Part shown: positions 20,323 to 35,648 of the stretch, in pieces
Numbering within the stretch: position 1 is the first letter of the stretch
Layout of the letters: the number at the start of each line of letters is the position of its first letter
NCBI GenBank assembly: GCA_025463745.1
Contig: JAODBB010000135.1
Span: 1-44,722, forward strand
Direction of reading: 5' to 3'
Source: Subtercola sp.
GTDB lineage: Bacteria > Actinomycetota > Actinomycetes > Actinomycetales > Microbacteriaceae
Length of the DNA: 44,722 nucleotides
The notes under the pieces: generated by a model
What the model was told of the DNA's origin: nothing
The model's input: only the letters and a program-made list of their open reading frames with translations
The model's database searches: none
Made by a program: the position numbers and the translations under genes

Positions 20323-22401
20323 TCAGCACGCGGCCGCATTCACGACACGAAACTCGAGAGTGCGATTGGAGTGAACGTCGATCGCGCTGAGCGCACCCTC
20401 GTAGATCGCCTCGTCGACGTCGCGGGGAGCGTACGCGTCACCGATCAGCTCAACCGCCAGACCGGCTTCGACCAAGATGTCGTAGAGCGCATCATCCGGT
20501 CGCCGCGTCTGGCTCAGGATGATCGAATCGATGTCGGTCAGCGTGCGGGCCCACGCGCCATAGGTATGAGCGAGTTCGACGGTCGAACCCTCGATTCGCT
20601 CGACCGTCGCCTCGGCGGTGCATCGCACGCCGGCCGCGATGAGTCGCGGGTACATCGTCGGAAAGTCGACGCTGCCTTTCAGCCCGGTGTCATGCCCGAT
20701 CTGTCCGTGAGCGGTGATCAGCTCGACGTGCCGCCCCTGAACGGCGAGCAATTCGGCCAATCCCATCGCCAGGTGAGCACCGTGATCGTCGACGATCAGC
20801 GTTCTGGCGCCTGCAAGCGTCGGATCTGCAATCACTGTGGCGGGGTCGAGCACTCTGATCGATTCAAGGCCAGGAATGGAGCGGCGATCGGGGCGGTAGA
20901 TCGAGAAGCCGTCGACCGCGTAGTGCGAGCCTGTTGCGACCACTGTCATGTCTGCTCCGAATTCGCGAGCCGTATCCGGTGTCGCATCGACTCCTAATCG
21001 AACCTTTACGCCGAGTCGGTCGATCGAATCGGTGAGGCTGGAGATCAGACGCAACCATTGAGCGCGGCCCGGCAGCGCCCCAGCGGCCCGCAATTGGCCA
21101 CCGAGCTCATTCTCTCGTTCGACGAGCAGAACCTGGTGCCCGCGGCGGGCAGCAGACTCTGCCGCCTTGAGACCAGCAGGGCCACCGCCGATAACCAGTA
21201 CACGACCAGGCTCTGCGGCTGTGTTGAAAACGTCTTTCCACTCGGCTTCTCTCCCCGACTCGGGGTTGACGGTACAGGTGATCTGGCCACCGCGGCCCAT
21301 CCGCCGCCAGCATCCTTGATTCGCGCCGACGCACGGCCGGATCTCCACCTTGCGGCCCGATTTCGCCTTGTTGACCAGCTCGGGGTCGGCGAGCTGCGGG
21401 CGCACCATCCCCACGACGTCGACCTTTCCCGATGCCACAATCTCGGCGGCCTGGTCGATGGTGCGAACGCCACAGGTTGCCATGATCGGAATGTCACCGA
21501 CCACTTCGCGAACGAGGGGGCCGTATTCGGCCATGTGGCCCGAGAGTTCGCTCTCCGCGGTCGGCACGAGTTGCTGCAGGGCGTGATATCCCGATCCGCT
21601 CAGGCTCACGTAGTCGATGTTCGTCTCCGAGGCGATGAACCTGAGGCAGGCTTGCGCGTCTTCCGGCGTGATGCCGAGGGGCCCGACCTTTTCGTCGAAC
21701 CCGTACTTCAGGCCCACCATGTAGTCGTCGCCAACCCGTGCGCGTACGGCGCGGATCGTTTCGACCACGATACGGGAACGATTCTCGACGCTGCCGCCAT
21801 ACTCATCGGTTCGTTGATTGGTCAGCGGCGACAAGAACGAGAAGAGCAGGTAGCCGTGCGCCGCGTGAATCTCGACCCCGTCCATCCCGCCCTCTCTGGC
21901 GATCTCTGCCGATCGCGCGAAATAGTCGACCATCTCGGCAATCTCAGGCTTTCGCAGTTCGTGACCGAAATGACCCCACATCGGCGAAGACATTCCGCCC
22001 GATGGCGACACCACATTCGACATCATCGCGAAGGTCTGCGCGGGCATGCCCTGCAATCCCATGTGGTGAAGTTGCGGCACAAGGATGCTGCCGTGCTCGT
22101 GCACCGCATCGACCCAACCGCGGTAGTGGGCGGCCGTCTCCGGCTCCCACGCATTGATCCAGCCATTGTGCGATGACGGATGCACGCACATCGCACCAGT
22201 GAAAATGGCACCCGCTCCGCCCTTCGCCCGCGCACCCAGGTATGCGGCGTATCTCTCGGGTTCGTGCCAGGTGGCGTGAGCCGAGAACATGACGCGGTTG
22301 CGCGACTCGACGGGGCCGAACCGAATCGGGCGCCACAGCGTTGACAGATCTGTCTCGCTCGCAACGTCGCTTGCTCTGTTTGCGGATTCGATGACGCTCA
22401 C
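20323..22401 (-). CDS. FadH/OYE-type NADH:flavin oxidoreductase (2,4-dienoyl-CoA reductase-like)
   Basis: 692 residues with the architecture of 2,4-dienoyl-CoA reductase/trimethylamine dehydrogenase: an N-terminal OYE TIM barrel for FMN (RVMFSAHATW, GVEIHAAHGYLLFSFLSP, DEYGGSVENRSR), a cluster-binding segment near 357-376, and C-terminal FAD/NAD domains (VLVIGGGPAGLKAAESAARRG). In the cluster segment the family pattern C-x2-C-x3-C-x11-C reads C357-x2-A360-x3-C364-x11-C376, so one ligand is Ala. Related proteins are annotated as mycofactocin-system FadH/OYE enzymes. GTG at 22401 has GAGGAG 5 bases upstream. It probably reduces a conjugated enoyl compound or demethylates an amine. It lies between the importer permease and an SDR on one operon. 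Confidence 0.88.
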   Translation of the reverse strand: MSVIESANRASDVASETDLSTLWRPIRFGPVESRNRVMFSAHATWHEPERYAAYLGARAKGGAGAIFTGAMCVHPSSHNGWINAWEPETAAHYRGWVDAVHEHGSILVPQLHHMGLQGMPAQTFAMMSNVVSPSGGMSSPMWGHFGHELRKPEIAEMVDYFARSAEIAREGGMDGVEIHAAHGYLLFSFLSPLTNQRTDEYGGSVENRSRIVVETIRAVRARVGDDYMVGLKYGFDEKVGPLGITPEDAQACLRFIASETNIDYVSLSGSGYHALQQLVPTAESELSGHMAEYGPLVREVVGDIPIMATCGVRTIDQAAEIVASGKVDVVGMVRPQLADPELVNKAKSGRKVEIRPCVGANQGCWRRMGRGGQITCTVNPESGREAEWKDVFNTAAEPGRVLVIGGGPAGLKAAESAARRGHQVLLVERENELGGQLRAAGALPGRAQWLRLISSLTDSIDRLGVKVRLGVDATPDTAREFGADMTVVATGSHYAVDGFSIYRPDRRSIPGLESIRVLDPATVIADPTLAGARTLIVDDHGAHLAMGLAELLAVQGRHVELITAHGQIGHDTGLKGSVDFPTMYPRLIAAGVRCTAEATVERIEGSTVELAHTYGAWARTLTDIDSIILSQTRRPDDALYDILVEAGLAVELIGDAYAPRDVDEAIYEGALSAIDVHSNRTLEFRVVNAAAC

Positions 22402-22445
22402 GATTTCTCCTCAGACTTCAGTAGTGTTTCTGCGGCCCACTGCGG

Positions 22446-23531
22446 CTATTTGCTTGCCGAACGCTTGACAACGATGAGCGAGTTGGCCGAGACGGCAATG
22501 ATGATCAACAGACCCGTCGTTGTCGGCAGGTACGAGGAGTCGACGCCGATCAGGTTGAAGGCGTTGTTGATGAGCGCGATGAACAGCACGCCGACCACCG
22601 TGCGCCACAGCGCGCCTTCGCCGCCCTTGATGCTGGTTCCACCGATGACGACCGCTGCGATCGCATCAAGCGGCAGCGACGAACTTCCGCCGGGATTCGC
22701 CTGGCCGGCTCCAGAGAGAGAAGCCCCGATGACACCCGCGAGCGCAGCACACACCGCACCGACGATGAGAGTGGCCGTGATGACTCGGGCGACGGGGATG
22801 CCCGACAAACGAGCCGCCTCCGGGTTGCCTCCGGCTGCGTAGATGTAGCGCCCGAACCGGGTGCGTGCGAGCACAAAGCTCAAGACGACCGCGACGATGA
22901 CAAAGACGATCACCGGGTTCGGGATGCCGGCGATCAGTGATCCCTGGCCGATCCAATCGAACGCCTCCGCGCTTTCGGGCGGAATAGTGATCTGGAATCC
23001 GCCGGTGATCGCCAGGCCGATGCCCGAGAGGACCAGACTCGTCGCCAGTGTGGCCAAGAACGAATGGATCTTGATGACGTTGATGAGTATCGCGTTGGCG
23101 AGGCCGACAGCGATACCGACGATCAGCACTGCAAGCACGATTCCGACGATGGGATTGCCGAAACTCACGGTGAGCGACGCCGCAACGATTCCCGCCAGTG
23201 CGTAGGTGTACCCGATCGAGAGATCGAAGTTTCCGCCGATCATCACCAAGGTGATGCCGCAGGCCGCAATGCCGATGTATGCGTTGCTGTTCAGAACGTT
23301 CAAGAGGTTCTGCGCTGACAGAAAGTTAGGGGCGGTGCACGCCAGAACAATGAAAAGCGCTACGAAGATGACGAGGATTCCGTAGTCGCGAACCAATCGT
23401 CGCCGGTCGATCTTGTTGGTGTGCCTGATGAACAAGGGTGCTGATGCGCTCGCGGCCGGCACCGGTGGCGAGGCAGCTGCAGCACCAGACGGAGCGGGTG
23501 CATCAATGAGTGATTTCTGGTCAGGCGACAT
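22446..23531 (-). CDS. CUT2-family ABC permease (RbsC-like)
   Basis: 361 residues. After a Pro/Ala-rich cytoplasmic leader (about 1-40), about nine to ten membrane segments follow with family features NLLNVLNSNAYIGIAACGITLVMIGGNFDLSIG and GRYIYAAGGNPEAARLSGIPV, and the loop GGTSIKGGEG. This is the branch that imports ribose, xylose, inositol and other small polyols. ATG at 23531 is chosen because AGGAG lies 9 bases upstream; it overlaps the ATPase gene by 11 bases. A TTG at 23540 in the same frame is less likely. Confidence 0.92.
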   Translation of the reverse strand: MSPDQKSLIDAPAPSGAAAASPPVPAASASAPLFIRHTNKIDRRRLVRDYGILVIFVALFIVLACTAPNFLSAQNLLNVLNSNAYIGIAACGITLVMIGGNFDLSIGYTYALAGIVAASLTVSFGNPIVGIVLAVLIVGIAVGLANAILINVIKIHSFLATLATSLVLSGIGLAITGGFQITIPPESAEAFDWIGQGSLIAGIPNPVIVFVIVAVVLSFVLARTRFGRYIYAAGGNPEAARLSGIPVARVITATLIVGAVCAALAGVIGASLSGAGQANPGGSSSLPLDAIAAVVIGGTSIKGGEGALWRTVVGVLFIALINNAFNLIGVDSSYLPTTTGLLIIIAVSANSLIVVKRSASK

Positions 23532-25050
23532 TGCCCACAACTCCTTTGCTCTCTGAGTAGCCGAAGGCCGCTCTCATGATTGACTCACCGTTGATCTCTG
23601 CGCCTTCGAACTCGGCCGCGATGCCCCCGCCGTGCAGAACGTAGACCCTGTCGCTGAGCTCTACGATCTCTTCGAGTTCAGACGAGATGAGCAGCACGGC
23701 CATGCCCTTTTCGTCTGCGAGTTTGGCGATCAGATGGTAGATCGATGACTTGGCTCCCACGTCGACTCCACGAGTGGGTTCATCGAGAATCAGCACTTTC
23801 GGGTCGCCGAGCAGCCACTTGGCCAAGAGCACCTTCTGTTGGTTGCCACCCGAAAGCGTGTCGGGTTTGTTCGACAGGCGCAGCGGATTGACGCCGCTCT
23901 CGGCCGCAGACACGAGAGCCTTCGCCTTGATCGCCTTGCCTCGCACGACACCCGCGGTGGAGAACGCCGCGAGGTGAGGTAGCGCGATGTTTGCCTCCTG
24001 CGAGAGGTTCTGCAACAGACCCTGTGTGATCCGATCCTCGGGCACCAAGGCGACACCGGCCCTCATCGCGGCCCCGCTCGATCGCCGGCGAAGCGAAACC
24101 CCATTGATCTCCACTGTGCCGGCATCGTATGTGTCGACACCGAAGATGGCGCGGGCGAGTTCGGTTCGGCCGGAGCCGACCAAGCCCGAGAGCCCGACGA
24201 TTTCGCCCCGACGAACGTCGATCGACACGTCGTTGAGCGTCGCACCTTGGCTCAGATTGCGAACCTCCAGCGCTTTTGCATCGCGCTTCCCACCGCGGTT
24301 CCGGTCGGGAAAAACCGACTCGAGCCGTTGCCCGAGCATCGAGCTCAGTAGCAGATCAGGGTTCGTGTCTTTGGCCTTCACATTTCCGACAAGCTGACCG
24401 CCCCGCAAGATCGTGATGTCATCGGCAAGCGAGATCACATCGTCGAGAAAGTGCGAAACGTAAATGATGGTCATACCGTCGTCACGCAGCTCGGAGAACA
24501 CTTGATGCAGCTTGCGAAGCTCTTCGCGATGCTGAGACGACGTCGGCTCGTCCATGATGAGAATCTTGGCGCCGCGAGCGAGAGCGCGCAGAATCTGCAC
24601 TCTCTGCTGCTCGGAGATACTCAGCGAATCGACGCGAGCGCTTGAAGAAGGGCGAAAGCCAACCCGCTCGGTCAGCTCACGATAGAGCTCTTCACGTGAC
24701 CGTGCGTTCGACGAGCCTCTGTCGAAGCGCTTCTCAGCGCCGAGAAAGACGTTCTCAAGAACCGACATCGCTGGTACCAGAGCGATCTCCTGCCCCATCA
24801 CCGCGATGCCATCCAGAATGGCGTCGCGAGGCGAACCATATCGAGCCTGTCGACCGTGCACCTCTACGATTCCAGAGTCGGGGCGAACAATGCCGCCCAC
24901 GATCTTGCCGAGGGTGGACTTGCCGGCGCCGTTCTCGCCGACAAGTCCGTGAATGGCGCCTTTGGTGACCGAGATTGAAACCTTGTGCAGCGCCGTCGTG
25001 GCACCGTAGGTCTTCGTGACGTCAGTGAGCGAGAGGGCGACCTCAGTCAC
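23521..25050 (-). CDS. CUT2-family ABC ATPase with two nucleotide-binding domains (RbsA-like)
   Basis: 509 residues, two ABC domains in tandem. Domain 1 has GENGAGKST, SISEQQRVQILRAL and LIMDEPTSS; the D-loop, usually AALT, reads SSQH. Domain 2 has a degenerate Walker A (GLVGSGRTELA) and a full signature LSGGNQQKVLLAKWL with LILDEPTRGVDVG, the typical RbsA asymmetry. GTG at 25050 is preferred: it overlaps the binding-protein stop (GTGA) and has GGGGAG 8 bases upstream; GTG at 25059 is too close to that site. It energises the permease at 22446. Confidence 0.92.
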   Translation of the reverse strand: MTEVALSLTDVTKTYGATTALHKVSISVTKGAIHGLVGENGAGKSTLGKIVGGIVRPDSGIVEVHGRQARYGSPRDAILDGIAVMGQEIALVPAMSVLENVFLGAEKRFDRGSSNARSREELYRELTERVGFRPSSSARVDSLSISEQQRVQILRALARGAKILIMDEPTSSQHREELRKLHQVFSELRDDGMTIIYVSHFLDDVISLADDITILRGGQLVGNVKAKDTNPDLLLSSMLGQRLESVFPDRNRGGKRDAKALEVRNLSQGATLNDVSIDVRRGEIVGLSGLVGSGRTELARAIFGVDTYDAGTVEINGVSLRRRSSGAAMRAGVALVPEDRITQGLLQNLSQEANIALPHLAAFSTAGVVRGKAIKAKALVSAAESGVNPLRLSNKPDTLSGGNQQKVLLAKWLLGDPKVLILDEPTRGVDVGAKSSIYHLIAKLADEKGMAVLLISSELEEIVELSDRVYVLHGGGIAAEFEGAEINGESIMRAAFGYSESKGVVGNVA

Positions 25051-26129
25051 TTGTTCCACTCCCCCAAGAAGGTCGGATTCGCTTCAAGAATCGTTTTGTC
25101 GACGATGCGGCCGACCGGGCTGAGCGCGGTCTGCGTGGTGATCAGTTGCGGGGTGCTGGGGTCGCGAACGGCATCGATGAGCGTTTCAGCCGCCTTTGCT
25201 CCGAACGTTCCGGGCACCAGTGCAATGCTCGACGGCCATTTGCCGGCGAGGATCTCCTGTACACCCTCGATCGAGGCTCCCCAGCCCAGGCAGGCGATGT
25301 CTCCGCCGCCGGCCTTTGTCGTTGCAGTGAACTGCTTGCCGGCCGCATCCGCCGCACGTTCAGCCCCGAAACAATTCTGATCTCCAGTCGTGATGATGAG
25401 GTTCAGATCCGGGTTGGCCTGCAGCACATCGGCCGTGGCCTGCTGCACCTTGGCCTCATCGAAGGCGAGGGCCGATTCGTTGACGATCTGGATGTTCGGG
25501 TTGGCGGCCAGAACCTTCTTGATCTCATTGAGTTTGATGACGTCGAACTCGCTCGATTTGGAGCCGATGACGATCATCGCCTTACAGGGGTCGATTCCCT
25601 TGCACAGATCTGCGGCCTTCTGACCCTGCACCTGACCCCCTTCCGCCATGTTGTCTGCGATCTGAACGGTGATTCCGTCGACGCCGGCCTTGGTCACGTC
25701 GGTGGGATCGGCACCGATGGCGTAGTCGATCGCAGCGACCTTGATGCCTTTGGCAAGTGCGTCTTTCACAACGGGTGCCATCTGCTCGGAGTTGTTCGGC
25801 ATGATCTCGAGCGCCTGATACTTTCCCGACGCAATCGCATCACGCGCCTGAGCAAGCTGCGTAGCACCGTCGAACTTTCCGTCGAAGAAGGTGACGGTTC
25901 CGCCCATTTTCTCGGCAGCGGCCTGCGCTGCTTCAAAGCTGCTCTTCGAGTAGCCGTTCGCTGCGGCATAGCCGAGGAAGGCGATGTTCACCGCACTGCC
26001 TCCGCTGCTCGTGGCGCCGGCAGACGCCCCGGTGCTGGCGCAACCGGCGAAAGTCGTCGTCGCGAGAATGGCGATAGCGCCGAGCGTCAGGCCCTTGCGG
26101 AGCCTCGATGCTGTGGTGAGGTTCGACAT
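25047..26129 (-). CDS. CUT2-family substrate-binding lipoprotein (RbsB-like)
   Basis: 360 residues. The signal peptide ends in the lipobox FAGC (about residue 29). The mature protein has the periplasmic-binding type 1 fold: VNIAFLGYAAANGYSKSSFEAAQAAAEKMGG, IASGKYQALEIMPNNSEQMAPVVKDALAKGIKVAAIDYAIG, and ITTGDQNCFGAERAA. This fold binds monosaccharides, inositols and other small polar rings; the ligand is not evident and the enzymes around it suggest a cyclic alcohol or glycoside. It is the first gene of a five-gene operon and has two island motif sites upstream. A decayed paralogue lies at 27170-27460. Confidence 0.92.
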   Translation of the reverse strand: MSNLTTASRLRKGLTLGAIAILATTTFAGCASTGASAGATSSGGSAVNIAFLGYAAANGYSKSSFEAAQAAAEKMGGTVTFFDGKFDGATQLAQARDAIASGKYQALEIMPNNSEQMAPVVKDALAKGIKVAAIDYAIGADPTDVTKAGVDGITVQIADNMAEGGQVQGQKAADLCKGIDPCKAMIVIGSKSSEFDVIKLNEIKKVLAANPNIQIVNESALAFDEAKVQQATADVLQANPDLNLIITTGDQNCFGAERAADAAGKQFTATTKAGGGDIACLGWGASIEGVQEILAGKWPSSIALVPGTFGAKAAETLIDAVRDPSTPQLITTQTALSPVGRIVDKTILEANPTFLGEWNK

Positions 26130-26188
26130 TGAATCTCTCTTTCTGAGTGTGGGTGCGGGTTTTCAATCATCAGACGAATGCGTTGTGA

Positions 26189-26243
26189 ATTCGACACTAT
26201 CGTCTTGACTTAGTTGAGTGTGCAGCATTTCGACGCTGTTGTC
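26189..26243 (-). promoter_or_regulatory. Island motif sites 2 and 3, importer operon promoter
   Basis: On the minus strand GACGATAGTGTCGAAT (26204-26189) and GACAACAGCGTCGAAA (26243-26228) both fit GAC-N6-GTCGAAW, with starts 39 bp apart. Both face the binding-protein gene at 26129. The 34-bp block from 26189 matches 33062-33095 (upstream of the aldehyde dehydrogenase gene) at 26 of 34 positions. Confidence 0.65.
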
Positions 26244-26285
26244 TATAGTTAGGCGCAAACGTCGCGTTTCGTGATCGAGTCGTGA

Positions 26286-27134
26286 CTACGACCCGGAATA
26301 CTTCTGTGCCATGCCGAGGTCGACCGGCAGAGTGATTCCGGTGATGTAGCGAGACATCTCCGACGCGAGAAACAGCACGGCGTTCGAGATATCGACGGGT
26401 TCGACCCACGGAACGTCCCACATGTTGATCTTCGTCAGAACGTCGTAGGCATCTGCGAACGTCGGGTTTACCAAGTCGGGGCGGTAAACGGCGGGCGTCA
26501 CATCGTTATCGATCATCGTCGTGCGCACATTCGTCGGGTGAATCGTGTTCACTCGAATGTGCTCTGCGGCAAGCTCGTTTGCGAGAGTGCGTGCGAGACC
26601 GACGACGCCGTGTTTTGCCGCGACATAGTGCGCGATGTTCGGAATGGCTCGGAGCCCTGCCGTCGAACTGATCAGAATGATCGATCCCCCGGGCCCACGC
26701 TCGATGAGATGCGGGATCGCCGCTGTCGTCGTGTTCCACACCCCCGTGAGGTTCACATCGAGCATGGTCTGCCAATGATCGCGAGAGAGCTCCCACGATT
26801 TCCCGACCACGTTGAAAATTCCAGCGTTCGCCACGACGACATCGAGGCCACCGAGTTCTGCGACGCCGTCGTCGACAACGCTCCGGAGTGCCTCGACATC
26901 ACGCACATCCGCCTGCTTGGCCACGATGCGCCGGTCGAGCGCTTCGACCAGTCTCACCGTCTCCGCTAGATCTTCGGTCGTCGCCGCCGCATAACCGACT
27001 CCCTCGACAGGGCCATTGAGGTCGACGGCGATGATGTCGGCTCCCGCTTCGGCCAGCGTGATGGCGTGCGATCGGCCTTGTCCTCGTGCTGCCCCTGTGA
27101 TGAACGCAACTTTTCCGGTCATATCGGTTTTCAT
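26286..27134 (-). CDS. Mycofactocin-coupled SDR family oxidoreductase (1)
   Basis: 282 residues. The opening GKVAFITGAARGQGRSHAITLAEAGADIIAVDL, the insertion after beta-2 (about 40-65) and the C-terminal MWDVPWVEPVDISNAVLFLASEMSRYITGITLPVDLG are hallmarks of the SDR subfamily that keeps NAD tightly bound and passes electrons to mycofactocin rather than to free NAD (established for the family; carveol dehydrogenase belongs here). Catalytic Ser (ISSTAG) and Tyr/Lys (YVAAK) are present. It probably oxidises a secondary or cyclic alcohol. ATG at 27134 has AAAGGGG 7 bases upstream; the frame continues upstream only through pseudogene sequence. No mycofactocin biosynthesis genes lie in this window. 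Confidence 0.9.
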   Translation of the reverse strand: MKTDMTGKVAFITGAARGQGRSHAITLAEAGADIIAVDLNGPVEGVGYAAATTEDLAETVRLVEALDRRIVAKQADVRDVEALRSVVDDGVAELGGLDVVVANAGIFNVVGKSWELSRDHWQTMLDVNLTGVWNTTTAAIPHLIERGPGGSIILISSTAGLRAIPNIAHYVAAKHGVVGLARTLANELAAEHIRVNTIHPTNVRTTMIDNDVTPAVYRPDLVNPTFADAYDVLTKINMWDVPWVEPVDISNAVLFLASEMSRYITGITLPVDLGMAQKYSGS

Positions 27135-27169
27135 ACGTGCCCCTTTCCGGGCTCGGTCAGATGGATGAT

Positions 27170-27460
27170 CTACTTCTGCCAATCGCCGACGAAGTCCGGA
27201 TGTGTGGTGAGAGAAGTTGTCTTCGTTGATGCCGACGTGAATGGTAGGGTGCTCGCCCAGCACCTTCTGGATCTCTGTGCGCTTGATCACATCGAACGAA
27301 CTCGACCTCGACCTCGACCTCGAGCCGAGTGCTATCAAGACCTTGCAGGCGTCGATACCCTCGCGGAGGGAGGCAGCCACCGACGCTTGTGCATTAGCCG
27401 ACGAAGGCCTGCCCCGACGAAAACGGTGAGGGCGAGTGCCGAGGCGGCTGATTTCAGGCG
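27170..27460 (-). pseudogene. Decayed paralogue of the CUT2 substrate-binding protein
   Basis: Reading the minus strand, three fragments match the intact protein at 25047-26129 but in different frames. First comes a signal-peptide-like piece RLKSAASALALTVFVGAG near 27460. Then EGIDACKVLIALGS...SSFDVIKRTEIQKVLGEHPTIHVGINEDN follows, matching KGIDPCKAMIVIGSKSSEFDVIKLNEIKKVLAANPNIQIVNES. After a frame change and a loss of roughly 130 residues, THPDFVGDWQK and a stop at 27170 match the C-terminus NPTFLGEWNK. A CTCGAC repeat has inserted extra Arg-Ser codons. It is a remnant and is not expected to make a functional protein. Confidence 0.8.
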
Positions 27461-27464
27461 TATG

Positions 27465-27505
27465 ACGCATGAGCTGCTCGATTCGCGATCGAGCAGCTCA
27501 TGCGT
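27465..27505 (-). terminator. Strong hairpin after the SnoaL-fold gene
   Basis: A perfect 18-bp inverted repeat (27465-27482 with 27488-27505, 5-base loop) starts 11 bases after the stop at 27517. No T-run follows on the minus strand, as is common for actinobacterial terminators. It marks the boundary between the SDR/SnoaL operon and the decayed binding-protein copy. Confidence 0.7.
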
Positions 27506-27516
27506 TGCGGAAGGAG

Positions 27517-27996
27517 TCAGGCCGTCACCAGCGCGTCGACGTCACTTCCTGTTGCGGCCGACCAGTTCGAAAGCGGCGCCCAGTAGTGCAGATCGAACTC
27601 GCGAAGCGTGATCTTCCAGACACCGCCGCGACGCTCGACATGGTCGGTGTACAGGCCGCCGACCTGGGTCGGCCCGTCGACCGAATCGATCACGAAGCAA
27701 TCGAGCGCCGTTTCGGCCTTGCCCGTGTCACCGTCGATCGTCACCAGCGAGTTCGCCATCCAGTGATGCATCTTCGGGGTCTTGGCCCAGAGCGTCTCGG
27801 CCGCAGACATGATGCCTTCGATGCCGACGAACGGGTCGCCGAATGCCGGCCCGAGGTTGAGCGTCGCGTCGTCGAACCAGATCGACTTCAGCAGGGCGCG
27901 ATCGCGCCGGTCGAATGCCTGCGCATATTTCGAGACCAGGTCTTCGATTTCGATGCGGCTCTCGATCTTGTCGAGGCGAACGTCGGTGTCAGTCAT
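27517..27996 (-). CDS. SnoaL-like / NTF2-fold protein (1)
   Basis: 159 residues of the SnoaL-like (nuclear transport factor 2) fold: RIEIEDLVSKYAQAFDRRDRALLKSIWFDDATLNLG, KMHHWMANSLVTIDGDTGKAETALDCFV, and GVWKITLREFDLHYW, the usual helix-then-curved-sheet order. Members with this Tyr/Asp/His pattern act as hydratases, dehydratases or isomerases on cyclic ketones, but the substrate is not known. ATG at 27996 has AAGGAG 9 bases upstream. It follows the mycofactocin-type SDR (28071) with a 74-base gap that holds a direct repeat. Confidence 0.85.
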   Translation of the reverse strand: MTDTDVRLDKIESRIEIEDLVSKYAQAFDRRDRALLKSIWFDDATLNLGPAFGDPFVGIEGIMSAAETLWAKTPKMHHWMANSLVTIDGDTGKAETALDCFVIDSVDGPTQVGGLYTDHVERRGGVWKITLREFDLHYWAPLSNWSAATGSDVDALVTA

Positions 27997-28017
27997 GATG
28001 ATGTACTCCTTATTTAT

Positions 28018-28059
28018 CGATTTATCGGTTGGGTGGAACGATTTATCGGTTGGGCAGAA
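28018..28059. repeat. 21-bp direct tandem repeat, two copies
   Basis: CGATTTATCGGTTGGGTGGA plus A (28018-28038) is repeated at 28039-28059 with two changes. A partial third copy (TATTTATCGA) lies just before. It sits directly upstream of the ribosome site of the SnoaL-fold gene at 27996. Confidence 0.8.
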
Positions 28060-28070
28060 CACGGTTCGGG

Positions 28071-28967
28071 TCAGGAACGATTGGCGAGTTGCCACTCGAG
28101 CGCGCCGATTCGTTCCGCGGCGATGGCCGGGATTCCGGGAGGCTGCGCAAGCGTTCCGCCATCAACGGGCAGAGCGACACCCGTGATGTATCGCGCGGCG
28201 TCGGATGCGAGGAAAAGCACGGCTTCGGAGATGTCTTCGGGCTCTAGCCAGGCGATGGGGAGCAGCATGGTGGCCTGGGAGGGAAAGACCATCTTCTCTT
28301 TACTGCCACCCGGCCCTCCATTGAACATGTCGAGCACCGACTGGCTGTGCAGCATCGGCGTACCCGTGTTTCCGGGCATCACAGCATTGACGCGAATCGA
28401 ATGCGGCCCGAGTTCTGTTGCGAGCGAACGCATGAGGCCGAGCACTCCCGTCTTGGCGGCGCTGTAGGCCGAGAGTGATGGGTAGGCCGTCATGGCGGCC
28501 GTCGAGGCGGTGAAGATGATCGACCCCCGTTGACGCGAAACCATGTGTGGAATGACGGCCTTCGCAACCCGCCACGGAGCCGACAGGTTCGTTTCGACGA
28601 CGGTGTCCCAGATCTCATCGGTCTGCTGATCCCAGGGCAGATTGATTGCGACGCCATGGTTCACGGCCAGAATGTCGATCTGACCGAATTCGGCGATTGC
28701 CTGGTCGACCACTTCACCCATCTCGACGGAGCTCCGGGCATCCGCCTTCACCGCGAGACAGCGGCGGTCGAAGAGCTCAACCAGCCGGGCGGTTTCGTCG
28801 AGATCGGCTTGAGTGGATGTCTCGTACGGAGCGACCTCGGCAATCGGTTCGCAAATATCAGTCACGATGATGTCTGCACCTTCACTAGCGAGCAGGCGTG
28901 CGTGCGAACGCCCCTGGCCCCTGCCACCGCCCGTGATCAATGCGACCTTGCCGTCGAGACGACCCAT
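28071..28967 (-). CDS. Mycofactocin-coupled SDR family oxidoreductase (2)
   Basis: 298 residues. GKVALITGGGRGQGRSHARLLASEGADIIVTDI, the insertion after beta-2 (about 38-60) and PEDISEAVLFLASDAARYITGVALPVDGG place it in the same mycofactocin-linked, NAD-retaining SDR subfamily as the protein at 26286. NNAG is replaced by VNHGV. Ser in FTASTAA and the YSAAK motif are intact. GGAGG 5 bases upstream selects ATG 28967 over ATG 28979, which precedes that site. Two paralogues suggest two successive alcohol oxidations or two substrates. The promoter at 28992-29016 carries an island motif. Confidence 0.9.
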   Translation of the reverse strand: MGRLDGKVALITGGGRGQGRSHARLLASEGADIIVTDICEPIAEVAPYETSTQADLDETARLVELFDRRCLAVKADARSSVEMGEVVDQAIAEFGQIDILAVNHGVAINLPWDQQTDEIWDTVVETNLSAPWRVAKAVIPHMVSRQRGSIIFTASTAAMTAYPSLSAYSAAKTGVLGLMRSLATELGPHSIRVNAVMPGNTGTPMLHSQSVLDMFNGGPGGSKEKMVFPSQATMLLPIAWLEPEDISEAVLFLASDAARYITGVALPVDGGTLAQPPGIPAIAAERIGALEWQLANRS

Positions 28968-28991
28968 GTTTTCCTCCATTTTAGGTAATTT

Positions 28992-29016
28992 GACAATGGT
29001 GTTGAATATTCGACAC
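28992..29016. promoter_or_regulatory. Island motif site 4 overlapping a palindrome
   Basis: GACAATGGTGTTGAAT (28992-29007) is a variant of the island motif. It overlaps GTGTTGAATATTCGACAC (28999-29016), an 18-bp palindrome with one mismatched pair, whose right arm ATTCGACAC is identical to the motif tail at 26189 and 39304. It lies 25 bases upstream of the SDR start at 28967. Confidence 0.6.
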
Positions 29017-29061
29017 CGATCGATTCGGGCGCGCAGAAGTCAGCCGATCGCTGAACAGGCG

Positions 29062-29802
29062 TCAGCTGCGGTAGAGACCACCGTCAGCCATGATGGTTTG
29101 GCCGGTCACCCAGCCGCTGCTCTCACCGGCGAGAAAGAGCACGGTGCCGACCACATCTTCGGCTGTTCCTGCCCGCTTGATGGCCTGCGATTGAGCGAGC
29201 GCGTCTATGTGTTCCGCGTCGATGTTGGCCAACCCGCCCGGGGTCTTCGATGCTGTGGGGCCGACCGCATTCACAGTGATGCCGAATTCGGCAACGTCGT
29301 TAGCAAGCCCACGAGTGAAGCCGATCACCCCCATCTTGCTTGACATGTAGTGAGCAAGCCCCGGGATGACCAGGCCGATCGAATTCGACGTGATATTCAC
29401 GATTCGGCCATAGCCACCCGACTTCATCAGCGGCAATACGCCCTTGACCATCAAGAACTGCGAATCGAGGTTGATGGCGTGAACTCTGCGCCAGAGTGCG
29501 TAGTCGACCTCGTCGAACGGCACGTTGGGGTAGATGCCCGCGTTGTTCACCAGAATGTCACAGCGGCCGAACTGGCTCGACAGTAGCGCAGACAGGCTCT
29601 CGGTCGAGGCCGGATCTGACACGTCGGCCACTAGGCTCACTCCGCGCACGCCCTCTTTCTCGACCGCCGCCACGGTTTCGCCGGCCTCCGAAAGGTCGAC
29701 TGCCACGACGTTCAGGCCAGAGCGGGCGAGTGCCACGCTGATCGCTCGTCCGAAACCCTGCGCAGCACCGGTTACAACGGCAACTTTTCGATTGTCAGTC
29801 AT
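29062..29802 (-). CDS. Short-chain dehydrogenase/reductase (FabG-like)
   Basis: 246 residues, classical SDR: VVTGAAQGFGRAISVALARSG, DVSDPAS, NNAGIYP, Ser in ITSNSIG, and YMSSK. VAVDLSE after beta-2 points to NAD preference. It lacks the RGQGRSH signature, so it is a normal exchange-type SDR, unlike its neighbours at 26286 and 28071. ATG at 29802 has GAGAAAGAG upstream. It is the last gene of the aldehyde dehydrogenase-flavoprotein-SDR operon, 15 bases after the flavoprotein stop. Confidence 0.88.
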   Translation of the reverse strand: MTDNRKVAVVTGAAQGFGRAISVALARSGLNVVAVDLSEAGETVAAVEKEGVRGVSLVADVSDPASTESLSALLSSQFGRCDILVNNAGIYPNVPFDEVDYALWRRVHAINLDSQFLMVKGVLPLMKSGGYGRIVNITSNSIGLVIPGLAHYMSSKMGVIGFTRGLANDVAEFGITVNAVGPTASKTPGGLANIDAEHIDALAQSQAIKRAGTAEDVVGTVLFLAGESSGWVTGQTIMADGGLYRS

Positions 29803-29817
29803 TACTCTTTCTCACGT

Positions 29818-31500
29818 TCATGAAGCGATAGCGGGCGCAGCGTTCTCCACGCGGGAAGGCTGCCGTGCGGCATCCTGACCGGCGAGATAGCCCATGGTGA
29901 TGATGGGGCCGAGCGTGGCCCCGCCGGCCCAGTAACTCTGACCGGAAAAGGCACCGGCACAGTTGCCTGCGGCATACAGCCCGGGGATCGGATCACCGCA
30001 ACGATTCAGAACCCGGCCCACGGCATTCGTTCGTGGGCCGCCCTTGGTGTCGAGCGTCGCCGGGGCAAGCAGAGTGGCATAGTACGGGCCCGTCGCCGAG
30101 ATCGGCCACATCGTCTCGTTCTTATCGTTGCCGGGTCGGCCACCCATGTTGAAGTACAGCTCGATGGGCGCTTCGCCTCGATGAAAGTCCTCGTCGATGC
30201 CCGCCTCAGCGAATGCGTTGTAGCGTTCGATCGTCGACGCCAGATTCTCGACGAATGACGGGTCGAGATTCCATCCGCCGGTGCTCGCCGAAAAGCTCGC
30301 GAGTCGCTCACGAATCGCATCGGCGAGTTCCGGAATGGTCGCCGCCGAGACGATGTGCGATTGGTCGCCGCCGTCGGGAATCATCGGATTGCCGTACTTG
30401 TCGCCGGAGTGGTAGAGCTTCGATTCGGCATCCCAGATCATCGCGAGAATGAGGTTCGGGTACTCGGCCTTCTGCGATTCCCAGGCCCAGAAAGTCGGCA
30501 CGATGTCTTGGTAAGGAGATTTCTCGTTCACGACACGCTTGCCGTACTTGTTCACCCACACCATGCTGTCGCCGGGAATGCTGAAGGAGCAGACTTGATC
30601 GGGGCGATTGGCGATGGCGCGGTCGAGCACCATGGGCGCAAGCCACGCCCCATTCATGTTGGTGAGCTCGGCGCCGAGTGCTTCGGCGATCGGGAGAAAA
30701 TCACCGGTATTGGTGCTCGCGGCACAGCCGCTGAAAATCGGACCGGGAAGCGAAGAGGTTCGGAGCTCTTCATTGTGCGTGAATCCCCCCGTGGCAAAGA
30801 TCACTGCCCGACGGGCCCGGATGACGACTCGACCCGTTGCGGAGTTCGCGATGACTCCGATCACCTCGTCGTTGTCGTCGAGTATCACCCTCTCGACAGA
30901 GTGCTGGAGTCTGAGGTCGACACCTTCGCGGTCGGCGGTTCGCGCGAACACTCCGATCATGTCGGTTCCGTCGCCCACCTCAGTGGGCGCGCCGCCCTGC
31001 AGGTGCGGATAGATGATGCGCCCGAACGGCGCCTTATTCTCGGCCATCTGCGCGTAATAGTCCGGCTGAATGTCCCACGGAATGCCCTCGAGCGCACCCC
31101 ACTTCGTGAGCGTTTCGATCGCGTCGCCGGCGTGGTCGTAAAACGCCTCGATCATGCGGTACTCCCACTCGGTCAGGCCGAGGGTGGGCTTTTCGGGGTC
31201 GTAGTGCTGTGGCCTGGTCAGTCGGGCCATGTGCCGCAGGGCATCCGCTTTCGGATCGGCCCAGCCTTTCTCGCGCATGTAGTGGTTATTGGGCACCCAG
31301 TACGCGGCGGCGGCCTTCTTGGTGGTGCCACCGATGCTGTCACCCTTTTCGAGTTGGATGACCGTGGCCCCGTTCTTCGCGGCCGTAACTGCTGCCGCAT
31401 AGCCGCCGGCACCGGTGCCGACAACGATGACGTCAGTCTCGTCGTCGAACACAACGTCTGCTTCTCGCGCCAGTTCGGCGCCGAATACCTGAAATGTCAC
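29818..31500 (-). CDS. FAD-dependent oxidoreductase, fumarate reductase / 3-ketosteroid-delta-1-dehydrogenase type
   Basis: 560 residues. The FAD-binding Rossmann motif is at 23-60 (DVIVVGTGAGGYAAAVTAAKNGATVIQLEKGDSIGGTT). FATGGFTHNEELR and the C-terminal PGLYAAGNCAGAFSGQSYWAGGATLGPIITMGYLAGQDAA complete the FAD_binding_2 family. GGTTxxxxAAYWVPNN is typical of ketosteroid dehydrogenase and urocanate/flavocytochrome relatives. It would introduce or reduce a C=C bond in a cyclic ketone or acid. No signal peptide is seen. It sits 9 bases after the aldehyde dehydrogenase gene. Confidence 0.88.
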   Translation of the reverse strand: MTFQVFGAELAREADVVFDDETDVIVVGTGAGGYAAAVTAAKNGATVIQLEKGDSIGGTTKKAAAAYWVPNNHYMREKGWADPKADALRHMARLTRPQHYDPEKPTLGLTEWEYRMIEAFYDHAGDAIETLTKWGALEGIPWDIQPDYYAQMAENKAPFGRIIYPHLQGGAPTEVGDGTDMIGVFARTADREGVDLRLQHSVERVILDDNDEVIGVIANSATGRVVIRARRAVIFATGGFTHNEELRTSSLPGPIFSGCAASTNTGDFLPIAEALGAELTNMNGAWLAPMVLDRAIANRPDQVCSFSIPGDSMVWVNKYGKRVVNEKSPYQDIVPTFWAWESQKAEYPNLILAMIWDAESKLYHSGDKYGNPMIPDGGDQSHIVSAATIPELADAIRERLASFSASTGGWNLDPSFVENLASTIERYNAFAEAGIDEDFHRGEAPIELYFNMGGRPGNDKNETMWPISATGPYYATLLAPATLDTKGGPRTNAVGRVLNRCGDPIPGLYAAGNCAGAFSGQSYWAGGATLGPIITMGYLAGQDAARQPSRVENAAPAIAS

Positions 31501-31509
31501 GACGCCCTC

Positions 31510-32997
31510 CTAGAACGGGTACTGCGCGATTTCGTCGCGAACAGTAACCCATTTCCATTCGGTGAACTGGTCGGCGTTGGTCAACGTGGAGTGGTTGAAG
31601 CCGTTTCCCGACACACCGACACCGCCGATCGGGCCATAGACCTCATGCAGCACGGGCTGGTCGTTGATGTGCACGATTCCCGAATGCAGCTTGTCGGCGA
31701 TGCGCTGTGCCTGTGCCAGATCGGGGCCGACGACGGCGGCCGACAGCCCATAGCTCGTTTCATTGGCCAGGGCCACCGCCTCTTCGTCGGTGCTGAACGT
31801 CGTGATGCCGGCGATGGGCCCGAAGATCTCTTCATCGAAGACAGCCATGCCCGGCTCGACTCCCGAGATGACGGTCGGCTGGTAGAACAATCCCTCGCGG
31901 CCGCCTCCGACGCGAATGCGGGCACCCTTGGCGATAGTGTCGGCGACGATGCGGTCGACGTTCGCAGCCTGCTTCTCGTTGACGATCGGCCCGAGGTGAA
32001 CCTGACCGAGAAACGGGTCGCCCACGACGAGATTCTTCGCGTGACGAACCAGCGCTTCCGTGTACTCCTCAGCGATGCTCTCGTGCACGAGATGCCGCCC
32101 TGCCGTCAGACAGATTTGGCCTTGATGAAAGAACGAACCCCACGCGCCCGCGCTGGCGGCGGCCTCGATATCAACGCCTTCGAGCACGATGTAGGGGTTG
32201 TTGCCGCCGAGCTCGAGCGACACGCGTTTGAGCAAGCCACCGGCGACCGCCCCGATCTGACGACCGGCCCTGGTAGAGCCGGTGAAGCTCACCATGTCGA
32301 CAAGAGGCTCAGCAACCACGGCTTCGCCGGTGGCCACGGCGCCGGGCAGAACATGAAACAGGCCGGCAGGCAGTCCCGCCTCTTCGAGAAGCCGGGCGAA
32401 GATCACTCCCCCGCAGACCGGCGTCTGAGGGTCTGGCTTTAGCAACACCGCATTGCCCGCGACAAGCGCTGGCGCAATTGCCCGAGTGCCGAGAAGAAAC
32501 GGGGAGTTCCACGGTGTGATGATGCCGACCGTACCGATCGGAACGCGTTTGGCGAAGCTCCGACGGCCGACCTCAGCACTGGCGACTTGAATGCCGACGG
32601 GCTCACTGCCGAGGTTCGCCGCTTCGAGCGACTCGCGAGCGGTCATGAAGACCTCCCACTCCGCTTTCGGCCGGATCGACCCGGTTTCGCGAACGATCTG
32701 AGTGGCTATTTCGTCAGCGTGCTCGACGACGAGTCGCGAGAATTCCCGCATGATGTCGCCGCGCAAAGGGCCGGGCACCAACGCCCATGCGGCCTGCGCT
32801 TCACGCGCATCGATAGCCGCGGCCTCGACATCTTCTGTAGATGCCACGCCGATCGAACCGATGCTCTCACCGGTGGACTTGTCTGTGACGTCGATGGTGC
32901 CATTGCCGGGCTGCTTCCATCCGGTGCTGTAGATCTTGCCATCCCAGAGGGAGGCCGGCGCCAGCGTGACGAGATCGACGGTACTGAGATTCGACAT
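31510..32997 (-). CDS. NAD(P)-dependent aldehyde dehydrogenase (benzaldehyde/vanillin DH-like)
   Basis: 495 residues of the ALDH superfamily. N164 (TPWNSP), FTGSTRAG at 238-245, the general base E262 (LELGGNNP) and catalytic C296 (GQICLTAGR) are in place, as is the C-terminal EEIFGPIAGI. HQGQICLTAGR and the lack of an SQC-type loop resemble aromatic aldehyde dehydrogenases such as vanillin/benzaldehyde types. It oxidises an aldehyde to the acid that the CoA ligase at 33939 could activate. First gene of its operon, GGAGAGAG upstream, with an island motif at 33062. Confidence 0.92.
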   Translation of the reverse strand: MSNLSTVDLVTLAPASLWDGKIYSTGWKQPGNGTIDVTDKSTGESIGSIGVASTEDVEAAAIDAREAQAAWALVPGPLRGDIMREFSRLVVEHADEIATQIVRETGSIRPKAEWEVFMTARESLEAANLGSEPVGIQVASAEVGRRSFAKRVPIGTVGIITPWNSPFLLGTRAIAPALVAGNAVLLKPDPQTPVCGGVIFARLLEEAGLPAGLFHVLPGAVATGEAVVAEPLVDMVSFTGSTRAGRQIGAVAGGLLKRVSLELGGNNPYIVLEGVDIEAAASAGAWGSFFHQGQICLTAGRHLVHESIAEEYTEALVRHAKNLVVGDPFLGQVHLGPIVNEKQAANVDRIVADTIAKGARIRVGGGREGLFYQPTVISGVEPGMAVFDEEIFGPIAGITTFSTDEEAVALANETSYGLSAAVVGPDLAQAQRIADKLHSGIVHINDQPVLHEVYGPIGGVGVSGNGFNHSTLTNADQFTEWKWVTVRDEIAQYPF

Positions 32998-33061
32998 TGA
33001 GATTCTCTCTCCAACTTTTCTCTACGAGCCTGCCTGTGCAGGTCTAGCGAGTGTGACGCAA

Positions 33062-33095
33062 TATCGACTCTATTGTCAATACTTAGTCGAGTGTG
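33062..33095 (-). promoter_or_regulatory. Island motif site 5 and conserved 34-bp promoter block
   Basis: On the minus strand GACAATAGAGTCGATA (33077-33062) fits GAC-N6-GTCGA. The full block 33062-33095 matches 26189-26222 at 26 of 34 positions and keeps CACACTCRACTAAGT upstream of the dyad. It lies 65 bases upstream of the aldehyde dehydrogenase start. Confidence 0.65.
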
Positions 33096-33140
33096 TCGTT
33101 TTTTGAGAGCAATGTCTAGTGCTGAGACGGAAAGGGGTTT

Positions 33141-33848
33141 CTACGCGTTGTCGAGCATGTGCTCCAGGCGATTCAGATCGTCGCGGAGCAGCCCGAGCAC
33201 GTGAGGAACTCCCTGCCCGCCATCGACCATCTTGCGGTCATCCAACAGGCCGCCCAATGCGATGTCGGCCAGATATTCGGCGACTTCACGAGGCGACTTC
33301 GAACCCAGGCCATCTTTGCGCGGGTACCAGAACGCCACCCAGTTCGAGGTGCCGAGCAGACTGAACGCGGCCAGCTCGGGATCAACCGGGCGGCACGCTC
33401 CTTCGGAGATCGACTGCGATACCAAATCGGTGAGGGCGTGCAGCGTGTCGCGGCGTGCTTTCAGATATTGGGCGCTGAGAGCCTCCGGAAATGCACCCTC
33501 ACTGGTCAGCAGAAGCCGAAAGCGCTGGGGGTGGATCGCGACTCGTTCGGCCGAATTAATGACGGCCTCCCGCAGACGCTCATAGGCGGAGGCCTCGGTC
33601 GATGCGGCGAGCCGGCGAATATCGTCGGCCGTTTCGACCGTGAATCCCCGCACGAGCGCGGCAAGCATCTCCTCCTTGCCCGCAACGTAGTGATAGATCC
33701 CCGTTCGCGAGAGCCCGACCTCATCGGCCAGCTCTTGCAACGAGGTTCCGGCGTAACCTTGCTTTGCAAAGAGACTCTCAGCTGCTTCCATCAGCCGGCT
33801 CATCACCATTTCATGGCGGGCGGCGCTTTTCGATAGTGGCTTAGGCAT
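33141..33848 (-). CDS. TetR-family regulator
   Basis: 235 residues. The N-terminal HTH is clear: RLMEAAESLFAKQGYAGTSLQELADEVGLSRTGIYHYVAGKEEMLAALV (about 18-66). The C-terminal ligand domain resembles the TetR_C family of FadR/KstR-like regulators without a specific match. It diverges from the CoA ligase gene and lies next to the ALDH operon, so it is the obvious local candidate for island control, with a CoA thioester or ring substrate as effector (inference). Its start codon lies in an inverted repeat (33843-33863), probably an autoregulatory site. Confidence 0.9.
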   Translation of the reverse strand: MPKPLSKSAARHEMVMSRLMEAAESLFAKQGYAGTSLQELADEVGLSRTGIYHYVAGKEEMLAALVRGFTVETADDIRRLAASTEASAYERLREAVINSAERVAIHPQRFRLLLTSEGAFPEALSAQYLKARRDTLHALTDLVSQSISEGACRPVDPELAAFSLLGTSNWVAFWYPRKDGLGSKSPREVAEYLADIALGGLLDDRKMVDGGQGVPHVLGLLRDDLNRLEHMLDNA

Positions 33849-33863
33849 ACGAAGAGTATGCCT
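33843..33863. promoter_or_regulatory. Inverted repeat over the TetR start codon
   Basis: AGGCATAC and GTATGCCT form a perfect 8-bp inverted repeat with a 5-base spacer. The TetR ATG (33848-33846) is inside the left arm. It could be a TetR operator or an mRNA hairpin hiding the start codon. Confidence 0.5.
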
Positions 33864-33902
33864 TGCCTTCCACCAATCGCACTTTTGATCTCGACGATGA
33901 AG

Positions 33903-33938
33903 TTGACATTTGACGAATTCGTCTCTAGTTTGACGGAT
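33903..33938 (+). promoter_or_regulatory. Leaderless promoter with operator dyad (site 6) for the CoA ligase
   Basis: TTGACA (33903-33908) and TAGTTT (33926-33931) are 17 bases apart, a near-ideal primary-sigma promoter. The perfect 12-bp palindrome GACGAATTCGTC (33912-33923) lies in the spacer and fits GAC-N6-GTC. Seven bases after the -10 comes ATG 33939, with no ribosome site, so the transcript is probably leaderless. Confidence 0.7.
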
Positions 33939-35648
33939 ATGTCGGATTTACTCTCGCCTCCTCACTCGTCTGCCCTCGATGGCGACCCCGGACTGGTGCC
34001 CTACCCGCAGCAGAAGCGCGCCGAATACCGAGCCGCCGGGCTCTGGAGCGGGCGCACTTTGCCGGCCGATCTGGTCGCGGCCGCCCGGTTGAATGAGGGG
34101 GCTACGGCCGTGATCACGCCCGAACGCGAGCTGACGTACGGTGAACTCTTCGACGCTGCCGAGACACTCGCAATCGGCCTCTTATCGCAAACGAGCTTGC
34201 GCCCCGGCGACGCAGTCATGTTTCAGATGGGCAACGTCGCCGAAACGGTGATCGCGTACCTCGCCTGTCTTCTGGCGGGATATCGACCCGTCTGCACGCT
34301 GCCGCAGCACGGCAGGCGCGAGGTCGGATTACTTGCCGAGCACGTCTCGGCGCGCGGTCTGTTCGTGCAAGCCGATTTCGGGCGTGGCCACCTCGTCGGC
34401 CAGGCTCAGTCGCTGCTCGCCGACGGGTCCGTCGACGAGATCGTCGTCTTCAGAGGGGTGGCGTTCGAAGGCGCTCACAGCGGCGACGACGTTCGCGCGG
34501 CAGGAATCGATGCCGGTCCCGTCACTCTGCCCTATCGTGATCTCGACCCCGATCAGATCGCTGTATTCCAGCTCTCAGGCGGAACGACCGGGCTGCCGAA
34601 GGTCGCACCGCGTCTGCACGAGGAATACGCGTACAACGCTCGCGCCTGGGCGGAGCTGTTGAGCTGGGGGCCGGGTACGGTCGTGTTGTACCCGCTGCCG
34701 ATCATGCACAATGCCGGAATCGCACTCGGCCTGCAGTCGGCGTTGCTCAGCGGTGCAACGCTGGTGCTCGCGCCCAGCGCTGAAACGGGCATTCTGCTCG
34801 ATCTCATCGCTTCGACGCACCCGGTCGCAATTCCGCTCGTGCCCCCGGCGGTCGCCATCCGGCTTCTCGATGACCCACGCTCGACGGGCGTCGATCTCTC
34901 GGGCATCAGCCAGTTCTACGTTGGCGGTCAAAAGCTCCCGCTCGGGTTCGCCGAACGCCTGCGAGACACGTTCGGCATCGACACGAGCCAGAAGTTCGGC
35001 ATGGCCGAAGGGATGTTCGTGGCAACGCCGCCCGGGGCCTCCGAGTTCGTGCGGCATCACACCGTCGGCGCCCCGATCTCCTGGGCCGACGAAGTGCGGA
35101 TCGTGCATCCTGGAACCGACCGAGCTGTCGAGCCCGGCGAGATCGGCGAATTCTGCGCTCGTGGGCCCTACACAATCCGCGGCTACTACCGCGCGCCTGC
35201 GCACAACGCCGCGTCGTTCTCGCCCGATGGCTTCTATCGCACGGGTGACCTCGCGAAGGCTCACGTGATCGACGGCGCGACGTATTACTCGATCGAGGGC
35301 CGCATCAAAGACGTCATCAATCGGGGCGCAGAGAAAATCCACGCCGAAGAAGTCGAAGAAGTCGCTCTGCGTCACCCCAGCATCGCGAATGCGGCTGTCG
35401 TGGCGATGCCCGACCGCGTGCTCGGCGAGAAGGTATGCGCCTGTCTCATACTCGAGACCGGTGCGGAGCCGATCGACGTAACCGAGCTCGCCGCCTTTCT
35501 GTTAGCCGAAGGCCTTGCCAAGTACAAGCTGCCCGAACGGGTAGTAATACTCAAGACTTTTCCGCTGACGAACGTTGGAAAGGTATCGAAGAAAGATCTC
35601 CGCGAAGCGATCGTGCGACTGATCGAGCAGGAGAAGGCGCACGCCTGA
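33939..35648 (+). CDS. Acyl/aryl-CoA (or aryl-AMP) ligase, AMP-binding family
   Basis: 569 residues of the ANL superfamily. The start GLVPYPQQKRAEYRAAGLWSGRTL resembles 2,3-dihydroxybenzoate-AMP ligases, as does the overall length. Motifs: FQLSGGTTGLPKVAP (A3), PLPIMHNAG, YVGGQKLPLG, KFGMAEGMFV, YRTGDLAK (A7) and GRIKDVINRGAEKIHAEEVEE (A8, A10 hinge), ending GKVSKKDLRE with the catalytic Lys. It adenylates a carboxylic acid, probably the product of the ALDH, and transfers it to CoA; no carrier protein is nearby, which favours CoA. The frame opens at 33858, but the promoter geometry favours the ATG at 33939. Confidence 0.9.
   Translation: MSDLLSPPHSSALDGDPGLVPYPQQKRAEYRAAGLWSGRTLPADLVAAARLNEGATAVITPERELTYGELFDAAETLAIGLLSQTSLRPGDAVMFQMGNVAETVIAYLACLLAGYRPVCTLPQHGRREVGLLAEHVSARGLFVQADFGRGHLVGQAQSLLADGSVDEIVVFRGVAFEGAHSGDDVRAAGIDAGPVTLPYRDLDPDQIAVFQLSGGTTGLPKVAPRLHEEYAYNARAWAELLSWGPGTVVLYPLPIMHNAGIALGLQSALLSGATLVLAPSAETGILLDLIASTHPVAIPLVPPAVAIRLLDDPRSTGVDLSGISQFYVGGQKLPLGFAERLRDTFGIDTSQKFGMAEGMFVATPPGASEFVRHHTVGAPISWADEVRIVHPGTDRAVEPGEIGEFCARGPYTIRGYYRAPAHNAASFSPDGFYRTGDLAKAHVIDGATYYSIEGRIKDVINRGAEKIHAEEVEEVALRHPSIANAAVVAMPDRVLGEKVCACLILETGAEPIDVTELAAFLLAEGLAKYKLPERVVILKTFPLTNVGKVSKKDLREAIVRLIEQEKAHA

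Follow-up and report, generated by a model that had tools for sequence, protein, structure and literature searches.

Probable pseudogene of a second substrate-binding protein in a catabolic gene cluster of Subtercola sp.

Genes and features at the locus

The window analyzed here is the whole 44,722-nucleotide contig JAODBB010000135.1 of Subtercola sp. (assembly GCA_025463745.1). Its minus strand carries, within about 220 bases between 27170 and 27392, two degraded pieces of another binding-protein gene. These pieces and their surroundings are as follows.

25047 to 26129, minus strand: gene for an intact CUT2-type substrate-binding protein (PF13407, 108.4 bits, cut-off 35.1)
26286 to 27134, minus strand: mycofactocin-coupled SDR family oxidoreductase gene (TIGR03971, 398.8 bits, cut-off 300)
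27170 to 27214, minus strand: C-terminal piece, SLTTHPDFVGDWQK and stop, in a frame other than that of the central piece (shuffles and six-frame ranking)
27234 to 27392, minus strand: central piece of the probably decayed binding-protein gene, matching residues 167-215 of the protein at 25047 (tblastn)
27297 to 27323, no strand assigned: hexamer array CGACCT, 4.5 copies with period 6, inside the central piece (Tandem Repeats Finder)
27396 to 27464, minus strand: stretch formerly read as a signal-peptide piece, with no significant similarity found
27465 to 27505, minus strand: perfect 18-bp hairpin with a 5-base loop (folding z -6.0)
27517 to 28095, minus strand: SnoaL-like gene upstream of the remnant (PF13577), given as the longest ORF, so that its true start may lie further in

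A sister cluster is carried by contig SEEV01000009.1 of the Rhodococcus sp. MAG PMG_259 (hereafter L024), the sole locus returned by the contig scan with the binding protein, and it shares cluster genes with the window at 54-77% protein identity. The SnoaL-like gene is 54% identical to L024:7272-7769, the SDR gene 77% identical to L024:12704-13540, and the intact binding protein 71% identical to that encoded at L024:8861-9928. The SDR gene starts 35 bases past the stop of the remnant and is followed in the window by the intact binding protein, an ATPase, a permease and an OYE-type enzyme.

Two further details were noted. A 21-bp direct tandem repeat (90%) at 28018-28059 lies just upstream of an ATG that, judged by eye, is likely to be the start of the SnoaL-like gene. 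The gap between the SDR and binding-protein genes (26130-26285) appears by eye to be richer in A+T and could contain a promoter and operator specific to the importer, with no minus-strand promoter match there or anywhere else in the scanned region 26000-28100.

Two pieces are homologous to the binding protein

A sequence-only reading of this DNA had described a central segment of a binding protein, and this segment, GIDACK..LIALGS...FDVIK..EIQKVL, is indeed present at 27392-27234 of the minus strand. When the protein of 25047-26129 was compared by tblastn with 27120-27600 (a 481-base subject), a single significant match was obtained (E 6e-14), which covers residues 168-235 with 30 identities in 73 columns. 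A whole-genome search with the intact protein reaches the same piece at E 4.7e-9. Of the 49 aligned residues, the piece shares 28 with the L024 homologue and 26 with the intact protein of the window. The DNA alignment score of 56 was reached by none of 500 shuffles (mean 21.4, sd 2.7), and codon usage in this frame resembles that of coding sequence over most of the piece but drops at the hexamer array.

Over the 49 codons, the remnant differs from the window's intact gene at 12, 14 and 24 first, second and third positions, respectively, and from L024 at 15, 10 and 23, whereas the intact pair differs at 6, 7 and 15 positions of the same codons (71, 52 and 188 over the whole gene). By these small counts the remnant is less skewed towards third positions than the intact pair, as would be expected if part of its history had been neutral. 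An expanded CTCGAC slippage tract had also been noted within this segment, and corresponds to the array at 27297-27323. The array adds four residues that neither intact relative has, for which a gain of about two hexamer units is the simple reading.

The C-terminal segment with its stop was likewise recovered, at 27214-27170 of the minus strand and, in agreement with the mixed frames noted earlier, in another frame than the central piece. Its peptide score against either intact protein was reached by none of 1000 shuffles. With the C-terminus of the L024 protein as query (SLAAHPEYLGEWDK and stop), the piece ranks first among 89,356 six-frame window positions (score 54, versus 48 for the window's own protein and 24 for the next position), and with the window's own C-terminus it ranks second after the protein itself (40, next 16). 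At the DNA level alone the C-terminal piece is not significant (33 of 500 shuffles in the best of six tests), which may fit a short stretch with conservative replacements.

The two pieces are ordered and oriented as in the parent gene, yet differ in frame. The approximately 130 residues earlier described as missing account for the gap between the two pieces, but the loss is larger, with about 166 N-terminal residues before the central piece also gone. Approximately 63 of 360 residues are kept, spread over two frames. The open frame that spans the remnant (27134-27470) matched no NCBIfam model at E 1e-5.

The stretch upstream and the hairpin

Translated alignment with the protein at 25047 sustained two of three proposed fragments. 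The third, a signal-peptide-like piece, shows only chance-level similarity in peptide, DNA and six-frame tests: its peptide scores were matched or beaten by 161 and 483 of 1000 shuffles, its scores in six DNA tests by 74 to 395 of 500, and in four six-frame scans it ranked 167 or worse. As read from the sequence, no ATG, GTG or TTG separates the piece from the stop that precedes it in its frame, and the piece itself starts at the base of the perfect hairpin. Codon usage gives this frame a weak positive signal (+3.4 bits per 20 codons at 27457; the intact gene averages 9.9), too little to rescue the piece, and we rejected it as unsupported.

The hairpin sits 11 bases past the stop of the SnoaL-like gene and marks the upstream limit of the remnant. 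We rejected the possibility that it is the end of a mobile element, for a search of the genome with its 35-base core, allowing up to 3 mismatches, gave a single occurrence. Because this core is single-copy and L024 carries a different strong hairpin (z -4.0) at the same place, a terminator is the simpler reading, and the hairpin probably serves the SnoaL-like gene in this way.

Comparison with the Rhodococcus cluster

The gene order in L024 is aldehyde dehydrogenase, FAD enzyme, SDR3, SDR2, SnoaL, SDR4, binding protein, ATPase, permease, SDR and OYE, beyond which lie a TetR-type regulator and then an AMP-binding (ligase-like) gene. In the window, by comparison, SnoaL is separated from the binding protein by the remnant and the SDR gene, OYE follows the permease with no gene between them, and the regulator and ligase are found on the other side of the aldehyde dehydrogenase. 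SnoaL and its hairpin are followed in L024 by an SDR gene, and the remnant is absent there. A search of the L024 genome with the remnant fragment gave one significant match, the known binding protein (E 9.4e-10; next E 0.72). This protein is, apart from the remnant itself, the best match of the remnant among 37 sequences compared, but differs from it in being intact, in having no remnant beside it and in the location of the SDR orthologue after the permease. The earlier suggestion that the island is still being remodelled holds only as this difference in gene order between the two clusters, from which no timescale follows.

Several side observations concern the clusters as a whole. In the window, 20323-35648 is a rarely seen catabolic cluster, syntenic with L024 but reordered, that holds mycofactocin-type SDRs, an AMP-binding ligase-like gene, an aldehyde dehydrogenase and a CUT2 importer, together with a KstD-like FAD enzyme and an OYE/BaiCD-like enzyme, both of which score under NCBIfam cut-offs. 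The SDR4 of L024 is absent from the window cluster, and a 64% identical relative is encoded on another contig of the same genome (C207:9056-9901, locus L051). In the first 20,000 bases of that 31,968-base contig, SDR queries alone matched at E 1e-15, with no match to the binding protein. The gap between SDR and OYE in L024 (13540-14173) appears on inspection by eye to contain a SnoaL/NTF2-like gene on the opposite strand, for which the permease/OYE gap of the window has no room.

Searches for an intact second copy

Related strains had been proposed as a place to look for an intact second binding protein, and none was returned from 12 genomes of the genus, which at E 1e-35 yielded only the genome itself and one distant match. 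With up to five candidates scored per genome, 394 genomes of the class (E 1e-50) returned only the genome itself, and 396 genomes of the phylum (E 1e-35) returned the same genome and two distant matches, again with no intact second copy. Among the whole genomes of 60 relatives, 40 gave a match at E 1e-3, the best outside the genome itself being E 8.2e-43 at 30% identity. Other binding proteins of the genome are 29-31% identical to the intact one.

Plasmids were searched with several queries. The remnant fragment gave two matches at E 9, a level expected by chance, and the binding protein gave 72 records, all below 60% identity, among which the two neighborhoods viewed (H1 and H6) are other gene clusters. 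The SDR gene matched 30 records at 60-80% as DNA and at least 5000 as protein, with one at 60% or more among the matches listed, and the OYE-type enzyme matched 2417, all below 60%.

Origin of the second copy

A tree with eight outgroup proteins, drawn from the loci compared with the remnant, unites the remnant with both intact proteins, those of the window and of L024, at ultrafast bootstrap 100; the branch of the remnant is long (0.64, compared with 0.14 and 0.19). The full alignment joins it to L024 (support 70), whereas the 68 covered columns leave it outside the intact pair (support 57). Among 147 nucleotides, 8 are shared only by the remnant and the window gene, 10 only by the remnant and L024, and 30 only by the window gene and L024, while all three differ at 10. 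The similar numbers of sites shared with either intact gene (8 and 10) give no sign that the copy derived from the window's own gene after the split from L024.

It is possible, though we hold this only tentatively, that the second copy was not duplicated here and is instead a xenologue, imported from another lineage by recombination. The remnant is about equidistant from the window and L024 proteins both in residues and in nucleotide sites, and AU tests reject no placement (p = 0.30 with the window protein, 0.69 with L024, and 0.31 with the window and L024 proteins joined), so that the tree is compatible alike with local duplication, with an origin predating the split from L024 and with import. 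Moreover, the cluster looks rare, as judged from the search of the class. However, a donor is absent from the collections searched.

Rather unlikely, in our judgment, is a tandem duplication of the whole importer (binding protein, ATPase and permease) around the SDR gene, with the first copy since lost but for fragments of its binding protein. Such a history would also account for the position of the SDR gene, which stands before the binding protein here and after the permease in L024, given the orders SnoaL-remnant-SDR-BP-ABC-permease-OYE and SnoaL-SDR4-BP-ABC-permease-SDR-OYE. Nevertheless, the 35 bases between the remnant stop and the SDR start hold no remnant of an ATPase or permease, self-comparison of the window revealed no second permease remnant at E 1e-6, and the remnant has no more nucleotide sites in common with the window's intact gene than with that of L024. 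Other ATPases in the genome are at most 40% identical (12 matches including the query itself, E <= 1e-40), which leaves duplication of the whole importer unsupported; this is not proof, because in an assembly that is 86% complete a copy could be missed. The sequence-only reading had deduced an earlier duplication of the importer gene. A second binding protein of the same subfamily agrees with that proposal, but duplication as such exceeds the data, since the binding protein alone has left a trace. A single extra binding-protein gene in front of the SDR gene, whether a paralogue or an import, would be the more economical reading.

The open frame into the SDR gene

The frame of the central piece stays open for 112 codons from 27470 into the SDR gene, creating an ORF of 394 residues (26286-27470). 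If this frame were used, it would encode an N-terminal extension of the SDR enzyme, as the lack of an in-frame stop would permit, but we regard this as very improbable. When this stretch is shuffled, 230 of 2000 versions are equally open, and so are 1122 of 2000 for the parts outside the homologous piece; such openness is thus not rare by chance and provides no evidence of use. Moreover, the ATG at 27470 lies inside the hairpin without a visible ribosome-binding site upstream, whereas GGAAAGGGG precedes a separate ATG for the SDR gene at 27134, the start from which the alignment with the L024 orthologue also runs (27134 to 12695). Slightly more improbable still is that the dead gene has been partly reused, with its open frame supplying a translated leader of 112 residues to the mycofactocin-type SDR, so that a chimeric fusion enzyme would result. 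Automatic gene calling could lengthen the SDR gene by 112 probably spurious residues.

Discussion

We conclude, with a probability of roughly 0.87, that the region is a decayed pseudogene, derived from a second gene for a substrate-binding protein that belonged to the narrow subfamily of the intact gene at 25047-26129. That the resemblance arose by chance is a negligible prospect: chance describes the signal-peptide-like piece, but has nothing in its favor for the central and C-terminal peptides and is refuted for both by the shuffles (0 of 500 for the central DNA, 0 of 1000 for the C-terminal peptide).

The pseudogene has significant similarity to an intact member of the PF13407 type and carries disabling lesions, namely N-terminal and internal losses and pieces in different frames. 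It aligns with the central part and C-terminus of its parent, as a relative of the CUT2-type (ribose-type) ABC importer binding proteins (PF13407, Peripla_BP_4), but differs from that family in retaining so few residues, in two frames, and in an open frame that no NCBIfam model matches at E 1e-5. With no significant N-terminal piece and some 63 of 360 residues left, it falls short of a functional substrate-binding protein, which has a signal peptide and a complete two-lobed domain. Ordinary bacterial pseudogenes of duplicated transporter genes display truncation, internal deletion, frame change and slippage at short repeats. The remnant shows the same lesions and nothing distinctive; it is real, and an ordinary pseudogene in kind. 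A caveat to this conclusion is that the collections searched yielded no intact donor copy.

The arrangement of the pieces suggests a course of events. The second binding-protein gene probably stood directly before the mycofactocin-type SDR gene, with an operon-like spacing that the 35 bases between stop and start would preserve. At least two deletions would have removed the N-terminal part and the approximately 130 residues preceding the C-terminus, and the hexamer tract would have gained about two units. The remnant presumably makes no binding protein, and may now act only as the leader that separates the hairpin after SnoaL from the start of the SDR gene.

By itself, the remnant matters little, and mainly shows that the catabolic gene cluster, whose gene order differs between hosts, has been rearranged. 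It documents that two binding proteins from a single subfamily were once encoded in this rarely seen cluster.
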